DNA from: Ectocarpus siliculosus | Lineage: Eukaryota > Sar > Phaeophyceae > Ectocarpales > Ectocarpaceae | Reading direction: 5' to 3' | Assembly: GCA_000310025.1 (NCBI GenBank) | Contig: FN649727.1 | Span: forward strand, 5,618,027 to 5,682,026 | DNA: 64,000 nt | Shown: positions 1 through 13,982 of the stretch, piece after piece | How the letters are laid out: the number at the start of each line of letters is the position of its first letter | Numbering within the stretch: the first letter of the stretch is position 1 | Notes under the pieces: generated by a model | What the model was told of the DNA's origin: nothing | What the model saw: only the letters and a program-made list of their open reading frames with translations | Database searches by the model: none | Translations under genes and position numbers: made by a program

Positions 1-3000
1 CGCCCGCCGCAGCTGCCCCCCCTCGTACAAAGCAATAGAACTCTCAACATCACACCTCGTCCCCTCGCGAGACAACTATCACACAAGCCACAAACAACTG
101 GGCGCACCACCATCACAAACTCGAAGCACGACCAACAAACAGCACGTCAAAAAACTACCTACACACATCCACCCACAATCCGCGGCGGCACTCAAGCATT
201 CCTTACAGGGAAAAAAAAAAAATCTCACCGGAGCTCGTCTCGCCGTGCCCTTAGTTCCTCCCCGCTCTCCCTCTTCCGCCCGAGGGCCTCCCGCTGCTCC
301 CTCTCTAAGCGCCCCAGCTCGCCCACCAGGTCGGCCTTATCCCGAGCCAGCTCTAGCGACCGGCGAGCGACCGTCGCCTCCCTCTGAGACCTGGTCAGCT
401 GCGCCTCTGCTACTGTCTGGGACACCCGGAGGATCTCCCCGCGCTCGTGGATGATGTTGGGCGAAACGGGCTGTCCGCATGTGTGGCAGGCACCCTTTGG
501 GCGGGATTGGGGGAGGGACGGTAACAAGCAAACCGGTTGAGTGATCTGGTGCCCTGCAGGTCTTGGTTGAGAATAAAGTTGCAACAGATTGGGTGCGCCG
601 CTCTCCCCCGTCTTCCTTCTGCATCTCTCACGCCAATCCGTTCGTTCGACCCCCGTCAAAACCACTCTATTCCGATCATCAACCCTAACGCTCCTCTGCG
701 ACCACTTAGCATCTTGCTCTTGCGTCGCTATTACTCCGCTCAGCACGGATGTACTCACTTACAACTCGCGACGCTTTCCTTCGTACCTCTACCGGCACTA
801 ATTTCTCTTTCAACGTCGTACGTATTCATCCACCTATTAACGCTGCTCGCCGCCCCCAACCAACCCAACGCCCCACCCCCATCAACAGCGCCACCGCTCA
901 CCACCTCTCACTCTACACGTATCCACACCTTGCCGACCACTTCGAGACCCGCGTGCGCCTGGACAGCCTCGGCCGCGTGCCTGAGGGCGGCCTGTGCGTC
1001 CGCGAGAGAGGCTCGCGAGGACGAGGCGAGCCCCTCCGCCCGCTCAACCTCGCGAGACGCCGCAAGCGCCGCCGCTGCTGCGGTCTGGTCCGGGCTCTCC
1101 CCGCCTGATCTGTTGATGCTGGCGAGCTCGGCTGCAACCACCCCCCCCCCCCCCCCCCCCGGTGTAGATTTTTTTGAGTCCGTGTGACAACGGAGCAACG
1201 GCAAGAACGTTGGATGCAAGCGGTATCGGTCTAGAGTTTCCGTTTTGCGAACGGTAGTCGGTGGATAAACAAAAAGGCAAAGGGATAACAATTAAAAGGG
1301 ATTCTCTCTGTGGTCTTCCTCCCGTGTTGACAAGTCCCGGCTGATGATTCCAAAACATAACGAAAGGTGTCAAAAACTGCTGGCTAGAACAGATGGGGAC
1401 ACAACATACACAATTGCGTTGGGCGTACAAGGGTGGAGTAGATCAAGCGAGCACGCAAACGCGTTTCCCGCCAAGCGGTTACACGGCGAAACCAACCAAA
1501 AACGACCGTTCTTCACAAGCGCGCTAACCGGCAGCCTACCTGCTCCTACCACCACCCTGTGCGCAAAGAGTCAATCCCTCTGCCTGCACTGTAAAAAAAA
1601 TCACCCCCAGACACCCGGCGTTTCCGGATAGCACGCACATCGGGTCACGCTTCAAACAACGAACAGAGAAAACACATTTTCCCCGACGAAGCAAAAATCT
1701 CCCACTCGTGGTTTCCCTCGCGGTAATTCTCGACCTACCTACTCAACTTAGCCGCTACGATGCAACGCCCGCCCTCCGGCAGCATCATCACCACCACCAT
1801 CACCACCACTATCGCCCACAAACGCACCCCACAGATCAGGATCCCTTTTTCGCAGCAGTACCAGTTTCTCCTTCACCCCGAGCTCCGCGCGTTCCGAGTC
1901 TGCCAGTGCCGCCTCGCTCCGCTGCACGTCCCGGCGGAGGAAGGAGACGCGCTCTTGTGCCGCCTTCGCCTCGCCTGTCGTATTTTTAGTAGACAAACAA
2001 ACGACAGGTTTTCCAAATAAAGAGGCACGAAGAATGGAACGGACAACAACCAACTTTGGTGGTGCCACGACAGCACTTGCGCGTGCATGTGTATTTGTGG
2101 GCTGGAGGGATGCTCTTCGTGTGGTTTCAAGTCGTGGCGGCTAAAAGACCGACTGGAATGGTTGGGAAGGGTTAGGTTGGGTTTAGAATTCACGTAAGAC
2201 ATATTTGCCCCAATCCCGAAACAAAGCGCGTGTGCTGCGACAACACCCCTGGCGCAATACGTGTCCCCCCACCGCCTGCCCCGCCTCTCGTCTCATTTCC
2301 TTACCCGTTACCCCACCACTGCCTGCATCCATCCTCTCGCTCGCTTCAACGACATCTTATTCCATCCTGCCATCCCTTCCCCACAACCCCCGTCTCTTCA
2401 ACTCACCCAGCAACCTCATTCTCTGGTCGGTCCAGCCCCGTGCAAGCTCTTCCACCTCCAGCCTCAGCAGCCTTAGCGCCTCCTCGGCAACCTCGGCGTC
2501 GTCCCGCGCCCGCCTGGCGTCCAACCTCGCCTGCCCGCTTGCCCCGCCCGCGGCCTCTTCTTCCAACGCTGCTACTGCCGTGTCTACATCCGTCGCCCCC
2601 GCAGCGGGTTCCTTGCTGTCTCCCCCTTCTCTAGAATTGACCCCGTCGGCAGCAGCAGTAGCGGCGTTTTTGGTGCCGGTCTTGCTGGGCTGCTTCCCTT
2701 CCGCTACGTCCGCAATCGGTGCATCGGACTCGCCCGCCGACGTTGATGCTGTGGGCGCTCCTGAGGCGGAGGTGGCGGCGGCGGCGGCGGCTTCTCTTCG
2801 CGCACGCTGCAGCTCTTCCGTCAGCCTCGCCAGGTCCTCTCGCCGAGTAACGGCCTGCCACACGCCCGTGCAAACGAAACTCGACGATGTTTGCCACTAC
2901 TTTTCATTCAGCGTGCACATCGAGTGCAATGCCATTGCAATATCTGTCGTGTGCCACGTCGCCCACACGCGCGCGAGTGGCAGCATGTAGCCGCTTAACC

Positions 3001-6000
3001 TAGGCTACGGTGAAACTAGTCTTTACAAGTGGTAGACGTAGCGGCCGTCGTTGTTTCATGAAAATTCATAGACGCCTTCTCTTCATCCGCCGACCCTACG
3101 GCAGGGCACCTTTCTATCCTCTTAAAGACAAACACGAAACAACAACGAGCACCACAAAATGTACACGAACGAAAACAAACCAGGCGAACAACGAGAAACA
3201 GAGCGCGTCCGGGGGAACCGCGTTGACCTCTCCTGCCCCCGCCCGGCGTACATGCCTCCCCGACCCCCTACCCCTGTAGTACTCCACCCACCCTTTCTCT
3301 AAACCTTGCGGCTTCCTCGTCGCTTTTCCTTGCCGTGACCCTGCTACGTGAGGCTAAATCCTGCCACAGATCCATCGGCACCTGTTCAAACGCCACACGA
3401 AACCAAGAGGCGCAGGGAGAACACGAGCGCCGATGGGGGGGGGGGGTGTACTCATAGTCGTGCATGCCGTAGTCGTTTGACCATTGACCTCGCATCCCTA
3501 CAAAGCCGGGACGGAGCACGCCGGGTTCTCACCGGACCAGGCTCTCACATCACCAAGCGCGAAGCGCCGTGAGGTATTTGGCGAGTCGCATGAAGGGTGA
3601 GCTGCATCCTGCTAAGGGTGTTCGGCATCTTGTGCTTACTTCCTTGCGTACGGATGACAGCTACGTATGACTTAATTTATTTTCTGGTGCTTTCACTTCC
3701 AGAGACAGTTGTAAGCACTGTGTAACTGCCTCGAGGAAGCTTGACCATTTTAACACAACGTGGTGCGATCATCCCCCGTTGCGCGGAGTGAGGTTTCTCG
3801 ACCCCGCACAACATGATCTACTCGACCACCATTATGGTTACCGCCAAAAAAAAAACCAGAGGTAAAAAAAAAAGACGGTAACCTGGTTGCCGAGTTCACG
3901 AGGTGAATTGGCTTGTTTTACAACGTCGTTGCCAAGCGACGAAAACCCAAACCCCGATGGCAAACACCGGGGGGGGGCGGCTTGTTTTACAACGTCGTTG
4001 CCAAGCGACGAAAACCCAACCCCGATGGGGGGGGGGGGGGGAGGGGGTCAAGACTATAATGCAATTCGGGGTAGACAGCGTGTGTTCCGGGGTAAAAGCG
4101 GGGTAATACCGTCTCGAAGAATGTACGAGATAAGAGACCACGACACACACCAATGCATGCAGTACACACCACGGAAGTGGGCATTATTATTACCAGAAGC
4201 GCCAGGTCTTCCTTGAGCTGAGCGTCCGTGCTCTCCAGTAGGCCGTTGAGGTGGTGCTGCCCCTGAAAGATACCGCGCCCTAGTACGTGCGAGGACAGCC
4301 CGAGCTCGTCCTCTAGAACCACCTGCGTCTCTCTGCCAAACGGGACGCAAAGAAAAAGAAACCAGTGGGGTTAAGAAAAGGGTGAGAGCGTGGACTGGGG
4401 CAGGGCCCGTTGGTCGATTTGTTACGTCATACGACACACACGGGAGAATCAAGGCGGGGGGGGCAGGCGGTAGGGAATGAGAAGGTGGACAGAGGGGAGG
4501 GGCAGAGGGTCGCGCGAACCGCAGTATTCGTGTCTAACCAACTCCATAAAACGCCCGAACAAATACCACAACCACGCGCACTTCCTCTGGCATACGAATC
4601 CAGTTGCATTTAGTGCAACCCGCGGCTGCCGGAAAAACCACCAAGCATCTCGCCCTCTTTACCAACCTACTGTAACCGCTTCCTATCTCCGTGCCCGCTC
4701 CTTCCACCTCAGAACTCACTTTGCTATCTGGCGGGTCAAGTCCTTCCCGTCGTGCTTGAGGAACAGCTGGTTCACCCGCGCCCCCTTCCGCCGCTTCAGC
4801 CAAAGGGGTTTCCCGTTGAGCGTGGCCGTGAGGGTCACCTCCGCCACCGCCGACCGCCGCGAGCCTTCCTCGTTCCCGCCTGTGAGGAGGAAAGCAACAA
4901 GCAAAATGCGGGGGTGGCGTAGCAGGTGTTCACACCTCAACCTTGCAAGCAAAAATGGCAGCCAACGCCGAGGCCAGCGGTGCGGTCGGCAGCAGCACCC
5001 CTCTCTATCCTGCTCTTCCTCGGACGCAGCAACAGCACCACAGCATCAATCAGGAGTCGTCGAGAGCGACGATAGCGGTACGCCGCCTTGTCCGTCCGGC
5101 GAGATATGTTTAGAAAATCACGAAACGTCATCACCACACCGAAAACTGGCACATTGGGGAGTCTACCGACGGAAGGAGTGGCTGCCGCTGATGGGTTGGG
5201 CACCGGCAAGCCCGCCGCAATCGCGGGTCCGGCAAGAAGCACGGACGGTGTCAGCACCGCCGTGCAGGAGATTGACTCACCGGTGGAGGTAGCGGAAGAT
5301 GCCGAGGAGACCGGCGAAAGAGCGCGGGTCACCTCGTGGACCACGTCGGCCACGCGGCCGTCAGACACGGGCCTAGTGTTCGAAGATTGGAAGAACACGA
5401 AAGCAAACAAACAAACAAACAAACAAAAAAAGGGTCGGGACGCAAAGTGCACGCACGTAGAGGGTTAGGCAGCATACAGCAGGCACGGCGTCCCCAATAC
5501 AATGTATCCACCTTAGGGGCAGTGAGAGAGGTACAGTGAGAGGTAGGAAGAGACACAGATTGCTCCACACCAACGGCACATACCGAGAGACAACTGACGC
5601 CAGCGTAAGCCATCAAGGCGGTACTAATGAGCTAACAGGGGCATGCCCCATTTTCACCGACAGAGACGTGCACGAAGAAAACAAACTCATACCGGTATAT
5701 CCAAAGACACCCTCAGAATGGAGGTGCCGCCTCTTGCTTGCCTTTTCCACCCTCTCCCCCTCCCCTTCCATCCCTTTCACTCTCTCACTCTCTCGATATA
5801 TTTTGCTTGCCTCCCCCCCCCTCTCCTCTCCCCTTTCCCTCCCTCCGAGTCTCTCTAAATACATTTCCATCTGTCGCAAACCAGTTCCGTTAGCACTCAT
5901 GAATCCTGCGCCACCACACCACACCACACCACACCTGGCATCGACAACGCCCGCCAGCGCCCAGAGAGCGGACATGGCCAGCGTAGTTTTCCCCGCGCCG

Positions 6001-7769
6001 TTGCTGTCTGCTCCAGAGTCGTCCAGATTACTCCCTCGAAGCAAGACAACGCCTCGCTCGTCAAGGGGATACGTGATCTGGAGAACCGTGTGTGCGTGAC
6101 GGCGGAGGGGGGGGGGGGGGGGGGGGGGGGTCCCCAAAAAATTTGGCCGACGTTACCAAAAAAAAAACGGGCCCCCCCTTGTGGTTTTAAAAAACACCCC
6201 CGGAAATTTCGGGAAGCCCCCCCCCCAGGGACCCCCCCCCCCCCNNNNNNNNNNNNNNNNNNNNNNNNNNNNNNNNNNNNNNNNNNNNNNNNNNNNNNNN
6301 NNNNNNNNNNNNNNNNNNNNNNNNNNNNNNNNNNNNNNNNNNNNGGGGGGGGGGGGGGGGGGGGGGGGGGGGTGCTCTAGAAACATGATTCGAAGTGTTA
6401 CAACAAATGAACGGGTCCCCGTCTTGGCTTTGAACAGACCACCGCGGTAAATTCGGCGATGCACCGCCCTAGGGCCAACACCACCCCCCATGAAGCAGGA
6501 GCTTCACGAAAGCATTCCAAAACATGTAGCGTGAAATTTCCAGATGTGACAGACCGAGACGTTTCACCAAGGCGGGTGAATCTCTACGAAACCCACCAGC
6601 GAGAGAGCCAGAGAGTCGATCGACCCCTACAGCAGTACAGCGCCGAAAAACCATGACACCCTTCACATAAAAATATAGTGCTATTTTTTTCGTCGCGGGC
6701 GGGGGGTTACACGGCAAGCCAGCCCACCAGCCTGCCGTTTCCCCCCTGTTCCACAGCGTCATCATCGCCCACCTCATCGCGAAACGGCCCGAAGTTCTTG
6801 AGCTGGATGCTGTGCAGCGCCAGGGACGTGTGGCGGTCCTCTCGCCCACGTTCCTTCCAGGTAAAAAGTCGGGGTTCAAGAAAAAAACAAAACGTAAAAA
6901 CAGCAGCACCGCCATGAGTTTCGTTTGCTGAGCAATGGGGGAAGATGGGCCTTGAAAGAATCAAAAACAATGTTCCGCACGGCAGGAGCAATCTTGGTTG
7001 TGGGTGGTGAATTAGCTACGGTGACTGACACTCCTTGACGTTTCTGATATATTGTGGCGCGTTTCCTTGCTTTCGGATTCGGAAAGTGGCCGGGTAGCGT
7101 GCCGCGCTTCGGAAGATAACTCGCCGCTGTGGGCGTGCCGGGGCAGTGTTCTTGTCGATGACCACTGCAGCCTTCGGGAGGAGGGAGGTAGTCTCCAGCT
7201 ACATACTGGAGGGCACCAACGATGGTCCTGTTCAGCTTCAACTATATGCCGGGAGCTGGCAAGCAGCCACCGCCTGCTCGAAATTGCCGACGAAGTTCAT
7301 GCAACCCCTCTTCCAACAACCAACAGATGACGCACTTCTAGGTGTGAGCACTTTGCGCACCTTCGACGCTGCCTGCTGCCCGAGGCCTTTGATGAGGCTG
7401 AACCCCAACTCTTCTACCTGCCGTTTTGTCCACGGTTAACGGGGCAGCAACAACAAAAAGAAGCGAGAGCAAACGGTCGACGTGCGATGAACGTCAAGCG
7501 CACCAGGGTGGATTGGGGTAAGGGTGCCTACCATCACTACTGCCTCGTTCGTGTCCTCTGATCGACATAGATCCTGCACAACAAACCGCACTACTTCAAA
7601 CACTCACCATGCCCATATTTTCCCGTTTCATCGTTTCATCGTTTTCTCTCTGCATGGCGTGCTTAGGTCCTCTTCTCGTATCTACGCGACGACGCAAGCG
7701 TTCCGTTGCGTGTACCTTGCATCGCGGCAGTCCAAAATCAACAAGTCATATTTCGAGACACAGTTGACC

Positions 7770-7828
<59 letters not shown>

Positions 7829-10800
7829 TTTCCCGGCTGTGCACGCATGCTCGACGCATCGCCCTCTGCAAGCGTCCCTTTGTCATGGGCGCACAATCCA
7901 GCTCCACCACGAGACTGTCGCACCCATCAGTTTTGGATCAAATCGTTTCGCGTCACGAACCTCCGAGAAAAAAACAACCAAGGAACAATATACTTTTACC
8001 TCTTTCGAGACGTTTCTGCCGCCACCCTCCCTCTCCCTCTCCAAGTAGGCGCCGAACAGCACATCGGGCGACAGGCCGGCCGAGTCCACCGGGAAGCTAT
8101 TGGCCCCGTCGGCACCGGCGACGACCGCGGGAGCGGCCAGGCCAGCCGTTCCGTTCCCGCCGGCTCCTCCGAGGAAGGGTGTGAACGGCGGGAAGGGTCT
8201 CGGCTTCTCGCGGATCTCGACCTCCACCATCTCCTGAAAAACGCGGCGCGATTTTCATTCAAATTCATTTGGATGGGATGGGCGCAAGAACCGGTTTACG
8301 AGTTGCGGGTACAGTGGCCGTGTTGCCCTTTTCGATAAGCGAGGAAAGGCCTCTGCGGGTCGGTGGCGCGGGTGTGTTTGGTGTGTTTGGTCAAAGTAAA
8401 CAACCAGCGGCGGCGGCGGCGGCGGCGACGGCAGCAGCACTGCCCTGCATAAGCTACAAACAGAAGTCTCGGTACAAGAACACCGATGGTTTCGTTTCGT
8501 GTCGCCGCGCTTTCAATTGGCGTGTCCTGAATGGTCCGTGAAATTAAAAAAAAGAAGCAGAACTGCTCCAAGTTGCTGCAACATCTTGTCCACTTTGCAT
8601 CAATACTTGAGCAGTGCTGCACCTTCATGAGCTCCCCCGCGCGCTGCCTGACGTCATCAGAACCGGCGTCCTTGACAGTCCATACCACACGGTCGCCGGG
8701 TGAGACCTTTCCCGCGAAACGCGCAACGAAAGAAGCACCAAAATGGGGGGGGGGGGTGGGCAAGGTGGAGAACGCGCGCCAACCCCCAAGCGGATGATTC
8801 GTGGGTAAACAACGCTTAGAGCGCGCAAGAGGGGCTTGTGAAGGGCAGGGAGAGCGAATGGAGTAGGTGTGGGTGCACCGGGGAGGGGGGTACTCTGTCG
8901 AAAGGCAGCACAAACACGAAACCCTTTCCCGCTGCCAAAAGGACGCACCCACCACTGGAACACGCTGCTTCAAAAAACATACCAACACACATCGTTTGCT
9001 CTCGCGGGCACTCTTACGTCCTAGTTCGACATTATCAGTCGTGTTGTGCACCACCCGCACACCCACAACTGCTGTGTCGTACTGCCGCCCACCTCTCCAA
9101 CCTCGGGGAGTGGCTGTTCTGCCCCCTTGACCCTGAAGAAACGCCTGCCAATGTCGAGCGGGACGAGCTCTTTCTCTTCCCAGGTTTCGGCGTCCAGCAC
9201 GATGAGCGCCTTCGATTGCCCGGACTCCGACAGGGCGGTCTGTTCGCCCAGATAGGAAGAAATATAGAGTGACAAGAGTCATGATACGGTATGGCATAGC
9301 ATCGTGCGCCACTCACCACCCACTTCACGCGCCATTTAACGTTGGGCCTACGGATGCCACGAGACGGCGTGAGGTGCGACAGCAAAAAGGTCATGGTGCG
9401 AACCAAAAAATAAACGAAACAGACGAAACAGACCTCCACACGAAAAATGATGGAATCAGCTAACCGGCACGACAAGACCTCGAAGCAAGCAGAGCAAAGC
9501 AACGCGACTCGGGATGCCACAGTTAACGTAGCGCCTCTATACAGCGGTCGCCCACCCACGCACACCTGGTACGGGGAGCCGACGTAGCGGATGAAGCCGT
9601 CTCGCCCGCCGAGCGTGTGGGGCTTGTGGACGTGTCCCGAGAACGCCGGCACGTTCGGCGGGAAGGCCGACCTCGGGATGCCGGAGTGTGACGAGACGTC
9701 GCCGTTCATGGCCGCTCCCTTGATGTCCACGTGGCAGAATATCGCCCTGTACGCGAGGGAGGCAAGAAGCGTTTGGTAGCACGTACTCGGGTGTCTCGTC
9801 TTCTTGGGGCTGTACCGAGGGAAGCGGGATTGTTGTCTGGGACGGTGGCGGTTTGTTTCTTTGTCTACATAGCCGCGAAAAATACGCAATTCCTCCGAAG
9901 ATCTGTAACTTACAGCAGCAGCAGCAGCAGCAGCAGCGTGGAAGCACACACAGATACACACACAACGCGCTCCGAAACAAGCGTTTATGTACGTAGCACA
10001 TAGGTGCCACTCGATGGTAGTGCCCCTTGGCGGCACAGCGGTCACAAGGATGGTCAAACACAGAAAAAATAGAGGCACTCACCCCGCGCCACGGGCCTCG
10101 TCGCTACCCAGGAGGCCTTCCATCTCGGTGTTGTTCCTCCGGTGGGGTATCCAGAGAGCGCCGAGGAAGAGCGTTGGTTCCGACAGAACCAGCGCCTATG
10201 CGATGGATGCGAAACCACACGAAACAATAGTGGGGGGGGGGAGAGCAATTATTTCAAAAAGAGGGTGGTTGGGAATACACAACCCGCGCGATCAAAGCAC
10301 GTAGCGATGGACGGGAGTAACGGGAGTAACGGGAGTAATGTTCGAATCGGCTACGTTAAAGCGTTAAAGGTGTAGGCAAGGTACGCAGGTTGGAACCAAC
10401 ATGAGAGAGCAGGCATTCCACGCTGCACTTTCGCGTTTTTTCTTCGAGGTGCTGTGTCCGAGTAAATTTTGCTGACGGTGCAGCATGCTCTAACCCTAAG
10501 TACCGTCATGCGCTCATTTGAAACACTGCCGCCCTGCTGTACCCCGCCACAAACCGTCCACAGCCACGCCAACCCACACAGGGGATCTGGATACGCTCTC
10601 GCACCAGTCGGCATGTACCGCCTGATACGCATAGAAACAATCGATGGGCCTCGTCCAAGCTTAGAATGGGGGCGACTCCCAAGACCATGAGTTTTCTGGC
10701 CGACCCACCCCTCGACACCGCCGACCGGCCTAAAAAACCGCCGTGCTAACCTACCTGCATCGGATCGGTGAAGGCGAACTGCAGCGGGGTAAGGGCGTGC

Positions 10801-12752
10801 ATCCCGCCGCCGAGGGTGACCTGGTCATGGTTGCCGGGGATCATCACTACCGGCCGTGTCCAGGTCGCCAGGTGCTCCATCACCGGAACCAGAAGGTCCA
10901 CCTTTCGGAGTTGTTCGATTTCGGCATGGCATGTTGTTGGCGGCATCAGAGGGGTTAGGGTTAGGCTTGCGTGTATTTCAGTACACAAGACAAGGGCCTG
11001 CACTTTCAGAACTGTCCGCTGTCGTGGAATCAATCCACTATTGTAGACTTCACAGCCCAACATACACTACTTGTGGAGCCCCATGAATACCTTGAGGGCC
11101 AACCCCACTGTCATTGGTTGAACACGGGACAAAGACACCGTACGAGTACACGGCTCTACAGCAAGAATCTTGTGAGCCTGTTCTAACAAGCGTCGGGAAC
11201 GGGTGCACCAATCAGAGAAAAGTGCAAGAACGCTCGGCATCACCTTGAGAGAACCTCTGGCGTGCCAAAAGTCGCCCAGAAACGCGATCCCGCAAGCCGA
11301 GCGCTTCATCGCCTCCTCGTTCACGCGATCAAGCACCTGTTGTTAAGCAGATGAACGCAAGCGACGGGAGCCAGGTGTCCGTACCATGATTAGGAGGGCG
11401 GGACACAACAGCGGTCGACCGCCGTGGTCGAAAAACAAATCAGAGGCGACCTGGGAAATACAGGTACAAAAGGGCATCCTACTACTCTTTGGCGGATGAA
11501 AGCTTGAGCAGCATTCGCAATACCTCTTAGAGAAGCAAAGCGACAGTAATCCCTCGAACGACACGTGCACCACACCACCACCACACCACAACACACCACG
11601 CCACGCCACGCTCCGTACCTCCAAAGAAACGGCGAGCGAGGCTGGAGACACATGCAGGTCCGAGAACACCAGCCATTCCTTCATCGTAGCGTGCGCCAAA
11701 CCGTCGGCGCTCATGTTGAAAACAGCGGTCGTGGCCGTCTCGCTGGCTTTCTCTGCTAATGCTGCCGCCGCCGACGGCGGGGACGCTTGCAGCGAAATCG
11801 TTCGCCCCGCCAGCGATGGCGGCACAACGCCGGTCGACCCCCTCGTCGTTTTCCCTCCCGCCTTTGTTCCTTTCCCTCTTGCGACAGCCTTGCCTCCTGT
11901 GCCGGCAACGGCTGTGGCGGCGGCCGATCCAGGCGCCGCGGCCACCTCCTTGGTTTTCCCATTCCTCTTGGTCGAGGCGGAACGTCGTCGCTTTGCCGCT
12001 GGCGTTTTGGCTGCTGGAGAAGCCGCCGCCGCCTCCACCGCTGCCTCCACCGCCGCCGATGTCCCCGCCGATGTCTCCGCCGCTGTGGACGGCGACGCGT
12101 ACGCGTTGCCGAGAGGCTCCATGTTCATCCTTCGAGTCGACACGGGACCACTTGGTCTCGAGGCAGCATCGGCCTCCGTTCCCAGTGCTTTCCCGCTGGC
12201 TGCCCCGCCGCCTCCTCCTCCTCCCCAACTCTCCAGCAGGTCTACTTTCCACCAGCCTCCGGCCTTCCCCACGACCGTGCCGAGGCGGCCGGTGTCAAGC
12301 AAGCGCACGCGAGTTCCGGCGACGATGGCAGCGCTGCTCATGGTGGGCTTATCTTCCGGCGTTTTCGGTCTTCTGGTGGTGGTGTCATCTTTGGCGGCCT
12401 TCATCTCGGTGCTGGTAGAAAAGCCGCCGAGCCCTCGGCGAGCCGCCCTCGTGCTCCCCCGCGCTGGCGGCGCGACAATCGGTGCAGTACAAGCCCCTCC
12501 CCAGTTGCCAGGAATCGCCGGCCCTTGTCGTCGGTGGCCCGAGGATGCAAGGGCATAAAGGGTAGGCTGATTTCGGCGCCCACGCTGCTCGCACTTTGCG
12601 TTGCTACGGTCAATGGAATACCAGCCGTCGACGCCGCCGCTATGTCTATCATCCACGAGTCCGCTAGTGCGGGAGAACTCGCGCAAGGCGCGAGGCAGCC
12701 GACAACGACCGCTCTGCAGTGTTCCCGGCATGCCGCCGACAAAGGACAGCAT
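1..12752 (-). CDS. SbcD-SbcC (Mre11-Rad50-like) fusion nuclease/ATPase, 3' end beyond the window
   Basis: Exons, read right to left: 11619-12752, 11244-11336, 10755-10901, 10083-10195, 9566-9746, 9132-9239, 8623-8706, 8000-8233, 6773-6853, 5935-6077, 5333-5372, 4720-4868, 4194-4332, 3292-3381, 2407-2854, 1828-1974, 929-1131, 229-494, perhaps 1-12. Phases match throughout, giving about 1,270 residues so far. The N-terminus is basic and low-complexity, with a KOW/SH3-like motif (GTRVRLLDTGRLGTVVGKAG, about residue 146). The phosphoesterase has FSDLHVS, LGDFWHARG, IPGNHDQ, FCHVD and GHVHKPH. Exon 9 opens the ATPase (LKNFGPFRDE) with no stop between the halves. Next come a P-loop (SNGAGKTTL), a Rad50-like IFQGQHHLNGLLE segment, Ala/Glu/Arg-rich coiled coil and a zinc-hook CHTCGQPV near residue 1181. 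Walker B and the signature motif lie outside the window. A role in DNA-end or hairpin processing is inferred from the family. The start is the first ATG of the open frame; the exon 12 acceptor (GAG) is weak. Confidence 0.85.
3910..4028. repeat. Two-copy tandem duplication in an intron
   Basis: A unit of about 50 bases beginning ggcttgttttacaacgtcg occurs at 3910-3960 and again at 3979-4028, a period of 69 bases. The copies are almost identical and each ends in a G-rich run. They lie in the intron between the 4194-4332 and 3292-3381 exons of the SbcD-SbcC gene. Confidence 0.9.
6245..6344. other. Assembly gap (100 N) in an intron of the SbcD-SbcC gene
   Basis: A run of 100 N is flanked by long C and G homopolymers (about 6109-6130, 6219-6244 and 6345-6372). 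It lies in the intron between exons 9 and 10, so no coding sequence is lost. The sequence beside the gap looks like low-quality read ends. Confidence 0.95.
7771..7822. repeat. (CT)n microsatellite
   Basis: A nearly uninterrupted CT dinucleotide run lies in an intron of the SbcD-SbcC gene, just downstream of the exon at 8000-8233 in the sense of transcription. The Ser/Leu-repeat ORFs across it are artefacts. Confidence 0.9.
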
Positions 12753-13982
12753 GGACGAGGTGGCGGAGGAGCCCAGGCACGCGAACAGCACCGCCGCTAC
12801 GCAGCGGTTGTTGGTGGTTGGAGTCGGTAATCAAGGACGGAACAGGGAGGATCCAGGAGGAACATTACAGCAAGTAGTGTTGATGTTGAGGTATACATGA
12901 GCACAGCACTGCTGCTTATCGCAGACAGGGCGAACGAGCGAACGAGCAGGTAAACAGATCGTATCTACAAGTATGCGTGGGAGGTCGTGGCTTTTTCTAA
13001 AGCAGCGCGACAGACGCACACACCCTGATGTTACTGAAAGGTGAGCATCTACAACAGCAATACCCGTAGCGAGTAACTGGCCAGTCCGTGGCGTCTATGA
13101 CAATGGCAGTGTAGCAGGACATGGCAGTTTGGGTCACATGAAACAGGAACACAGGCAGGACGTCCCAGTAGTACTGACTGAAACTTACCCTGCGGGCAGT
13201 CGCGCATCGTCGCCTCCGGCCAGGTGTGCGTGATTGGGGGAAATGAGGAGTTGGCGGAGTGGCATGCGTGCTGTGCACGTGACCGAGTAGTACTTACTAC
13301 GCACGGTGCTCAGTCAGTGCTTTGCTGTGTCTCCCAAAGACTATGACTATAATAATAAGGTTATTATAGTCATAGTCTTTGGTGTCTCCCAGCTCGAGGG
13401 AGCTCCGGGTGTATCTAGAAGCAGATGACCCCGGGCTATGTGTGTACATACCTCCCCAGCTGACGACCCCCCATGCAAGCGTCTTGGCGTGGCGCTCCTC
13501 TGTCCTGTCTGCTCTGCTCTCTGCTCTGCCAGACTGCAGACACTACAGTACACAAAGCGGCGAAACGTAGCATCCAACCTGCGGTCAACCCAACTTCGAA
13601 ATGTGAGAGCTTAACGCATACCAGTGTGTGAGATTTCGCAGGAGTGCACGTGTGTTGTTGATGATTGGACGTTGGCGTTGCCACTGGCTCTCTGTGTCCC
13701 AAAGTCATCATGTTCAGTTAGCTGCACATGTTGAACCCGTGACTGTTTACATGATCCCCACATACACCTTTGCAGCAGCCACCGCCCGTGTCAAAGCGAC
13801 TACTCCCTCTGCAGAGCTCTATTTGTGAAGACGGCCTCCCTGACATGTTGTAGCCATGAAGGAAGATCACCATGCGTGTTTGTGCCCACTTTGCCCGTAT
13901 AATTGTTACCTACCAACCGCCGTGGATCCATCCATCCACCAGGCCAACGTCCAAGTCACCACACGCGAAGGCAACGAAAACG
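12753..13982. promoter_or_regulatory. Divergent intergenic region between the SbcD-SbcC and fibrillin-like genes
   Basis: About 1.2 kb separates two genes that point away from each other, so it should hold both promoters and 5' UTRs. I see no convincing coding exon. The only distinct structure is the hairpin at 13327-13391, listed separately. No core promoter element was assigned. Confidence 0.5.
13327..13391. repeat. Near-perfect hairpin flanked by 10 bp direct repeats
   Basis: Two 22-base arms (13334-13355 and 13361-13382) are exact reverse complements around a 5-base loop (taagg). The hairpin core at 13337-13381 sits between two identical copies of gtgtctccca (13327-13336 and 13382-13391). 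The pattern resembles a tiny foldback insertion with a target-site duplication. It lies in the intergenic region upstream of the fibrillin-like gene. A cruciform or a structured RNA is possible but not shown. Confidence 0.9.

Follow-up and report, generated by a model that had tools for sequence, protein, structure and literature searches.

A 64,000-nucleotide stretch of the Ectocarpus siliculosus genome (the window; C2:5618027-5682026, C2 being the contig that carries it) contains on its minus strand a gene whose predicted product joins an SbcD-type nuclease and an SbcC-type ATPase in a single chain. We assembled the gene model from six-frame translations, choosing exons by eye and by hand. 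The model comprises 27 exons, each of the 26 introns having GT-AG boundaries; from an ATG at 11684 the joined exons give one frame of 1283 amino acids (aa), uninterrupted by stops (Table 1). The reading frame of exon 1 stays open further upstream to an ATG at 12752, the start adopted in the original prediction, which would lengthen the product to 1639 aa; which of the two is the start codon is not settled. The gene ends 3,980 bases past the low end of the window, with its stop at C2:5614047-5614049, and exons 21-27 were read from the neighbouring sequence, so that the LSGGQ and Walker B motifs lie beyond the coordinates covered by the original prediction. That prediction had placed SbcD-type nuclease exons and SbcC-type ATPase exons with a zinc hook consecutively on one strand and read them as one polypeptide in a eukaryote, and both statements are upheld, since the GT-AG exons join in phase and all 27 share one frame. 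When the first 593 residues were searched against the 189-Mb assembly, which all our genome-wide searches covered, the 13 matches all fell inside the gene's own span, indicating a single copy as far as searched. A light-harvesting protein encoded in this assembly matched a PDB chain called FCP17 (9ygv; E 2.2e-122), and among the 60 matches listed most bear fucoxanthin or peridinin names, so a fucoxanthin-bearing alga is very likely the source.

Table 1. Exons of the fused SbcD-SbcC gene and the assembly gap within it, in window coordinates (negative numbers lie past the low end of the window).
Feature	Position	Strand	Content and basis
Exon 1	11619..12752	-	ATG 12752 (first in frame), basic extension of low complexity containing a KOW-like stretch, then MKEWLVFSDLHVS (nuclease motif I); alternative ATG 11684
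Exon 2	11244..11336	-	Nuclease motif II (GDFWH); gene model and alignment
Exon 3	10755..10901	-	Nuclease motif III (GNHD); gene model, Pfam and alignment
Exon 4	10083..10195	-	Nuclease core (EPTLFLGALWIPHRR); gene model and alignment
Exon 5	9566..9746	-	Metal-binding histidines HVDI and GHVH; gene model and alignment
Exon 6	9093..9239	-	Nuclease fold ends and capping domain begins, at putative limits
Exon 7	8623..8706	-	Capping domain (PGDRV), limits putative
Exon 8	8000..8233	-	Capping domain, then what is probably helix 1 of the Rad50-binding helix-loop-helix
Exon 9	7532..7573	-	DLCRSEDTNEAVVM, phase 0; absent from the original prediction; nothing clearly equivalent in the phage protein
Exon 10	7361..7417	-	VEELGFSLIKGLGQQAASK, phase 0, probable second helix; absent from the original prediction
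Exon 11	6773..6853	-	First SbcC/Rad50 head strands (LALHSIQLKNFGPFRDE); fusion joint just before
Assembly gap	6245..6344	.	100 N, in the intron between exons 11 and 12
Exon 12	5935..6077	-	Walker A (SNGAGKTTL); gene model, Pfam and alignment
Exon 13	5281..5372	-	Gene model
Exon 14	4720..4879	-	Gene model and phage alignment
Exon 15	4194..4332	-	Q-loop region (GIFQGQHHLNGLLE); gene model and phage alignment
Exon 16	3292..3381	-	Start of coiled coil, inferred from composition
Exon 17	2407..2854	-	Coiled coil (inferred)
Exon 18	1828..1974	-	Coiled coil (inferred)
Exon 19	929..1131	-	Coiled coil (inferred)
Exon 20	229..494	-	Zinc hook CHTC, then returning coiled coil; phage hook CPEC aligned
Exons 21-27	-303 to -3979 (C2:5617723-5614047)	-	Rest of the chain, LSGGQ, Walker B, stop

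To judge from its motifs, the chain is a member of the SbcCD/Mre11-Rad50 nuclease-ATPase superfamily. Two Pfam families exceeded their own cut-offs, Metallophos (E 1.4e-4; 22.8 bits, cut-off 21.5) and AAA_23 (E 1.8e-6; 29.2 bits, cut-off 27), and SbcC_Walker_B (E 1.4e-5; 25.7 bits, cut-off 27), SMC_N (2.3e-8) and ABC_tran (0.0046) matched below theirs. In PHROGs, a phage SbcC-like family scored 136 bits and an SbcD-like family 57 bits, against at most 29 bits for SbcD, 21.8 bits for an archaeal Rad50 model and 12.8 bits for TIGR00618 (sbcc) among the cellular NCBIfam models, bits from different libraries being only roughly comparable. A sequence search of the PDB with residues 1-623 retrieved nine distinct chains at E ≤1 (SbcD, Mre11 and a putative exonuclease), all of them weak matches (best E 6e-5). 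Searches of the assembly with TIGR00583 (Mre11) and TIGR00606 (Rad50) gave no match at the fusion locus, which models of such length may miss when matches are weak. The nuclease half carries the metal motifs DxH, GDxxx, GNHD, H and GHxH, and the metal-site residues D9, H11, D44, N77, H78, D79, H145, H178 and H180 are invariant in an alignment of five sequences. The ABC head is split by a long insert, with Walker A and a motif that we take to be the Q-loop before it, and LSGGQ, Walker B and a presumed D-loop after it; GAGKTT (442-447), Q572, LSGGQ (1168-1172), LDE (1201-1203) and the LD of the D-loop (1208-1209) are all invariant with respect to the phage protein described below. Within the insert, the zinc hook CHTC (892-895) aligned with CPEC of that phage protein. 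By sequence, then, an SbcD nuclease with its metal-site motifs is followed by an SbcC head whose Walker A, LSGGQ and Walker B flank an insert with a CxxC hook; the nuclease half would end in a helix-loop-helix and the insert would form a coiled coil.

The joint between the two halves had been described as an 8000/6853 junction that was in phase 0, open, and made by direct exon joining. The phase and the open frame were borne out, but the direct joining was not, as two phase-0 GT-AG exons, exons 9 and 10, lie inside the interval. Both are probably real, exon 9, which has no clear counterpart, being the weaker call. The one-chain conclusion is unaffected by them; in a model that omits both, the final stop is again the only stop. 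Exon 10 (VEELGFSLIKGLGQQAASK) pairs in the alignment with the C-terminus of the phage SbcD (AQLALDIIKRVSGG) and, by eye, resembles the linker of fused viral proteins, for example LRQLGQTILAEIPEA in locus L099. Exons 8 and 10 are likely counterparts of the Rad50-binding helix-loop-helix, so that omission of exon 10 would drop half of the Rad50 contact.

We also considered whether an sbcD-like and an sbcC-like gene are merely neighbours, with the interval between 8000 and 6853 being intergenic. This reading draws on the length of the interval (1146 nt), on the fact that the joint is deduced from genomic sequence only, and on exon 8 itself, which reaches a stop after 7886 when read past its donor, so that a shorter separate nuclease is formally possible. 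However, no in-frame Met precedes exons 9, 10, 11 or 12 in their own open reading frames (ORFs), the interval contains no AATAAA, ATTAAA or TATA[AT]A hexamer, phase-0 exons bridge it, and one-chain homologues are both published and present in viral contigs, which makes two separate genes very improbable. There is no run of N between 6345 and 12752, so the junction lies on gap-free sequence, and this, together with the absence of Met codons and hexamers, supports a single chain. Across the gap that does interrupt the gene, between the SbcC strands of exon 11 and Walker A of exon 12, the alignment with the phage protein runs unbroken. A scan of 6700-8100 for bacterial-type promoters and terminators returned one match each, both on the plus strand, which is uninformative for a eukaryote.

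The closest relative came from a scan of viral contigs in which 36 of 39 pattern matches proved to be relatives. It is a pair of phage genes (L005) on the 42.7-kb contig IMGVR_UViG_2716884848_000001, where the sbcD and sbcC ORFs overlap by ATGA; they are flanked by a UvsX-like gene on one side and a RuvC-like gene on the other, and genes for SSB and primase adjoin. The algal chain is co-linear with this pair across both halves, with identities of 43% over residues 5-256, 37% over 398-599 and 31% over 1103-1279, and has the zinc hook, LSGGQ and Walker B in common with it. The phage proteins differ in being encoded by two ORFs (with the 4-nt overlap), in lacking a comparable N-terminal extension, in retaining the histidine of the presumed H-loop, and in the size of SbcC, 693 aa compared with about 890 aa for the algal chain from exon 11 on. 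A search of the algal genome for an L005-like UvsX gave one short match (37% over 79 residues).

A profile scan of viral contigs revealed 67 loci. Among the 62 newly fetched ones, some of them on contigs met earlier, 49 have separate ORFs, 5 have no detected SbcC, and 8 encode SbcD and SbcC in one ORF (L090, L091, L097, L099, L100, L101, L104 and L107). These contigs are viral by IMG/VR membership, neighbouring genes having been checked for phage genes at L005 only. Six of the fused frames were read; all have a CxxC hook and the same domain order, and five measure 975-1032 aa from stop to stop. The frame of L100 stays open further upstream, and that of L101 is cut by the contig end. Like the algal chain, these proteins run from nuclease to ATPase in one ORF; unlike it, they need no introns, and they form a separate clade in the trees, which included six of the eight.

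Searches of other collections yielded more distant relatives. With the 593 residues, tblastn matched 138 of 50,697 phage records and a plasmid search matched 678 of 72,556, none over 80% of the query in either case; the best 20 of the 678 plasmid matches mostly concerned the ATPase part only, at about 30-32% identity. The nuclease part alone matched a single plasmid record, from Methylobacterium (26.9%), in which an AAA ATPase lies past two intervening genes. In prokaryotic genome contigs, 6 of 91 pattern matches were relatives, with best segments of 30-38% and none nearer than L005; at E 1e-3, five of these six loci showed an SbcD ORF and none an SbcC ORF.

Phylogeny of each half, a check suggested with the original prediction, placed both halves of the algal chain as sister to the unfused phage pair L005. 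This was the case in trees of 27 rows (support 99/96 for SbcD and 100/99 for the SbcC head) and in trees of 35 rows that included six of the eight fused ORFs (99/97 and 99/98). The fused viral ORFs formed a clade of their own in the latter (100/99 for SbcD, 100/100 for SbcC). For these trees the fused ORFs were split at a motif-based point. The rows are nearly all viral; apart from the alga, the cellular ones are E. coli in both sets and the Methylobacterium plasmid pair in the 27-row set, and cyanobacterial, chromosomal alphaproteobacterial, archaeal and other eukaryotic sequences, fused ones included, are in neither. L020, with a short SbcD, was left out of the 27 rows. The 35 rows omit L101 (cut by its contig), L107 (scores equal to those of L104), near-duplicate or more distant separate pairs, the relatives from prokaryotic contigs, and the Methylobacterium, QdP_Psa3 and 3-521 rows of the smaller set.

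These trees bear on a further possibility, that the alga received the chain in its fused state from the viral lineage to which the fused ORFs L090, L091, L097, L099, L100 and L104 belong. Such ORFs exist, with an identical domain order and a similar linker, and trees constrained to unite them with the alga were not rejected by the approximately unbiased (AU) test (p 0.113 for SbcD, 0.059 for SbcC). By contrast, the unconstrained 35-row trees join the alga with the unfused L005 and hold the fused ORFs apart. We regard acquisition in fused form as rather unlikely; because a single fusion shared with the viral ORFs is not rejected, we do not claim two fusions as shown.

The original prediction had also called the enzyme endosymbiont-derived, a proposal that found no support. 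Under it, a bacterial sbcDC of plastid or mitochondrial descent would have been fused after transfer to the nucleus and would act in that organelle. If translation starts at 12752, the first 30 residues are rich in Arg and poor in acidic residues, as an organelle enzyme might require, and bacterial-type recombination factors work in moss organelles, according to the abstracts of PMC8159992 and PMC4358946. However, viral proteins, rather than E. coli, are the neighbours of both halves in the trees; trees constrained to join the alga with E. coli SbcCD were rejected (AU p 0.006 for SbcD, 0.012 for SbcC), few rows being cellular. The low scores of the cellular SbcD and SbcC models and the few, distant relatives in prokaryotic genome contigs point the same way, and we consider an endosymbiont origin improbable.

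The fused gene stands beside what appear to be separate Mre11-like and Rad50-like exons in the genome. Two matches to the Mre11 model lie at C47:218242-219302 (E 2.6e-16 and 1.4e-15, model positions 39-149 of 405), and three to the Rad50 model at C2:6712556-6742453 (best E 1.7e-16), one of them with an internal stop. These matches are partial, run exon by exon and are all below the cut-offs, as expected for single exons. When the fused protein was compared by blastp with the ORFs of the two Mre11 loci, only a 24-residue GNHD segment fell below E 1 (E 0.012). Canonical eukaryotic Mre11 and Rad50, and likewise E. coli SbcD and SbcC, share the domain families and the motif order with the fused chain but are encoded by separate genes.

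Organelle targeting of the chain is possible. Counted from the ATG at 12752, the first 30 residues include 5 Arg, no Lys and 1 acidic residue, and the hydrophobic moment reaches 0.61 among ten 18-residue windows sampled at this N-terminus. Such a composition and moment would fit a mitochondrial presequence, although the start codon is uncertain. The RuBisCO large subunit was not found in the assembly, so the plastid genome probably lies outside it. The N-terminal extension also contains, at window positions 12231-12323 in exon 1, a stretch (VAGTRVRLLDTGRLGTVVGKAGGWWKVDLLE) that we presume to be KOW-like. No Pfam entry covered it, and a 106-residue query containing it matched only itself in the assembly.

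Taken together, these results make it likely that the alga has a nuclear gene for an SbcD-SbcC (Mre11-Rad50-type) nuclease made as one chain, with phages as its probable source. An algal ancestor would have taken up an adjacent phage sbcD-sbcC pair, after which the stop between the two captured genes would have been lost and introns gained. Members of the SbcCD/Mre11-Rad50 family act as dimers, with a nuclease gated by ATP and zinc hooks that tether DNA. In the same manner, two algal chains may dimerise through their nuclease parts and ATP-bound heads while the hooks tether DNA; ATP binding would shut the heads over the nuclease active sites, and hydrolysis would make a DNA end or hairpin accessible for Mn-dependent cutting. 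A fused chain would fix a 1:1 ratio of nuclease and ATPase. The enzyme could serve, perhaps inside an organelle, as a second, specialised end-processing enzyme alongside the separately encoded Mre11 and Rad50. The fuller scenario, in which the captured pair was fused independently of the viral fusions and is now an organelle end-processing enzyme, we put forward only tentatively, as one that may well not hold in all its parts.

Several observations weigh against this interpretation. The histidine of the presumed H-loop (SHD in L005) is replaced by glutamine (ILQ/D, the slash marking the joint of exons 26 and 27), which would reflect either an error in the model or a deviating ATPase cycle, and the missing residue weakens the claim to a standard cycle; we keep the superfamily assignment because all other tested motifs are present. 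The gene model was read from genomic DNA, with exons chosen by eye, and its weak spots are the donor after -438 (GTCCGC) and exon 9. A single close phage relative, L005, came to light. In the SbcC trees the alga sits on a long branch (3.01 with 27 rows, 2.24 with 35), several rows have an odd composition, and the choice of rows, almost all viral, accounts in part for the grouping with phages; in the 35-row SbcC tree, the program warned of long branches meeting elsewhere. Gene transfer may have run in the opposite direction, or through a giant virus. Finally, the enzyme activity and the localisation of the chain are predicted.

The original prediction considered this gene the best candidate for a novel system, a view that earlier work overturns. 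Yoshida, Claverie and Ogata (2011; PMC3175470) described Mre11/Rad50 fusions of one chain from Mimivirus (R555) and twelve other sources, namely five bacteria, a Bacillus phage, Phaeodactylum, Physcomitrella, two Micromonas and two slime moulds, and distinguished a "moss-diatom-prasinophyte group" among the fusions. Separate canonical homologues were reported there for every cellular carrier except Deferribacter, and the viral gene pool was proposed as the source of the eukaryotic fusions; an operon would have been the template, and "unidentified intermediates" would have spread them. The Ectocarpus chain resembles these proteins in having the identical order in one chain and in occurring in a photosynthetic eukaryote with separate Mre11-like and Rad50-like sequences as well, and the published set already includes a stramenopile, Phaeodactylum. 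It differs in that Ectocarpus and brown algae are absent from the main text of that paper, as far as covered here. The chain is therefore an additional member of the published one-chain kind, likened to the eukaryotic fusions by their description and not by sequence comparison. Among the matches listed in full-text literature, which includes few subscription journals, nothing closer was found on a brown-algal case or in later work on eukaryotic fusions; in the parts consulted, PMC12906663 and PMC12153180 concern other Rad50-like or SMC proteins. New in the present analysis are L005, a close but unfused phage pair, and the clade that fused ORFs of viral contigs form. The one-chain Mre11/Rad50 proteins, of which few are known, gain a member, and the pair and the fused ORFs are concrete candidates for the viral pool of Yoshida et al., which makes their proposal testable by phylogeny.

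Three further features were observed around the gene or elsewhere in the assembly. Window positions 13334-13382, about 0.6 kb upstream of the ATG at 12752, contain an inverted repeat (CCAAAGACTATGACTATAATAA ... TTATTATAGTCATAGTCTTTGG) whose 22-bp arms match perfectly and are separated by 5 nt. Downstream of the gene, ORF translations from about -7449 to -7868 and from about -18509 to -18943, some 11 kb apart, are nearly identical, and the two stretches are probably copies of a dispersed repeat. Light-harvesting matches cluster on contigs C92, C232 and C488 (10, 3 and 5 matches, respectively), all with a score of 127.6 bits, and this equality suggests recent copies.

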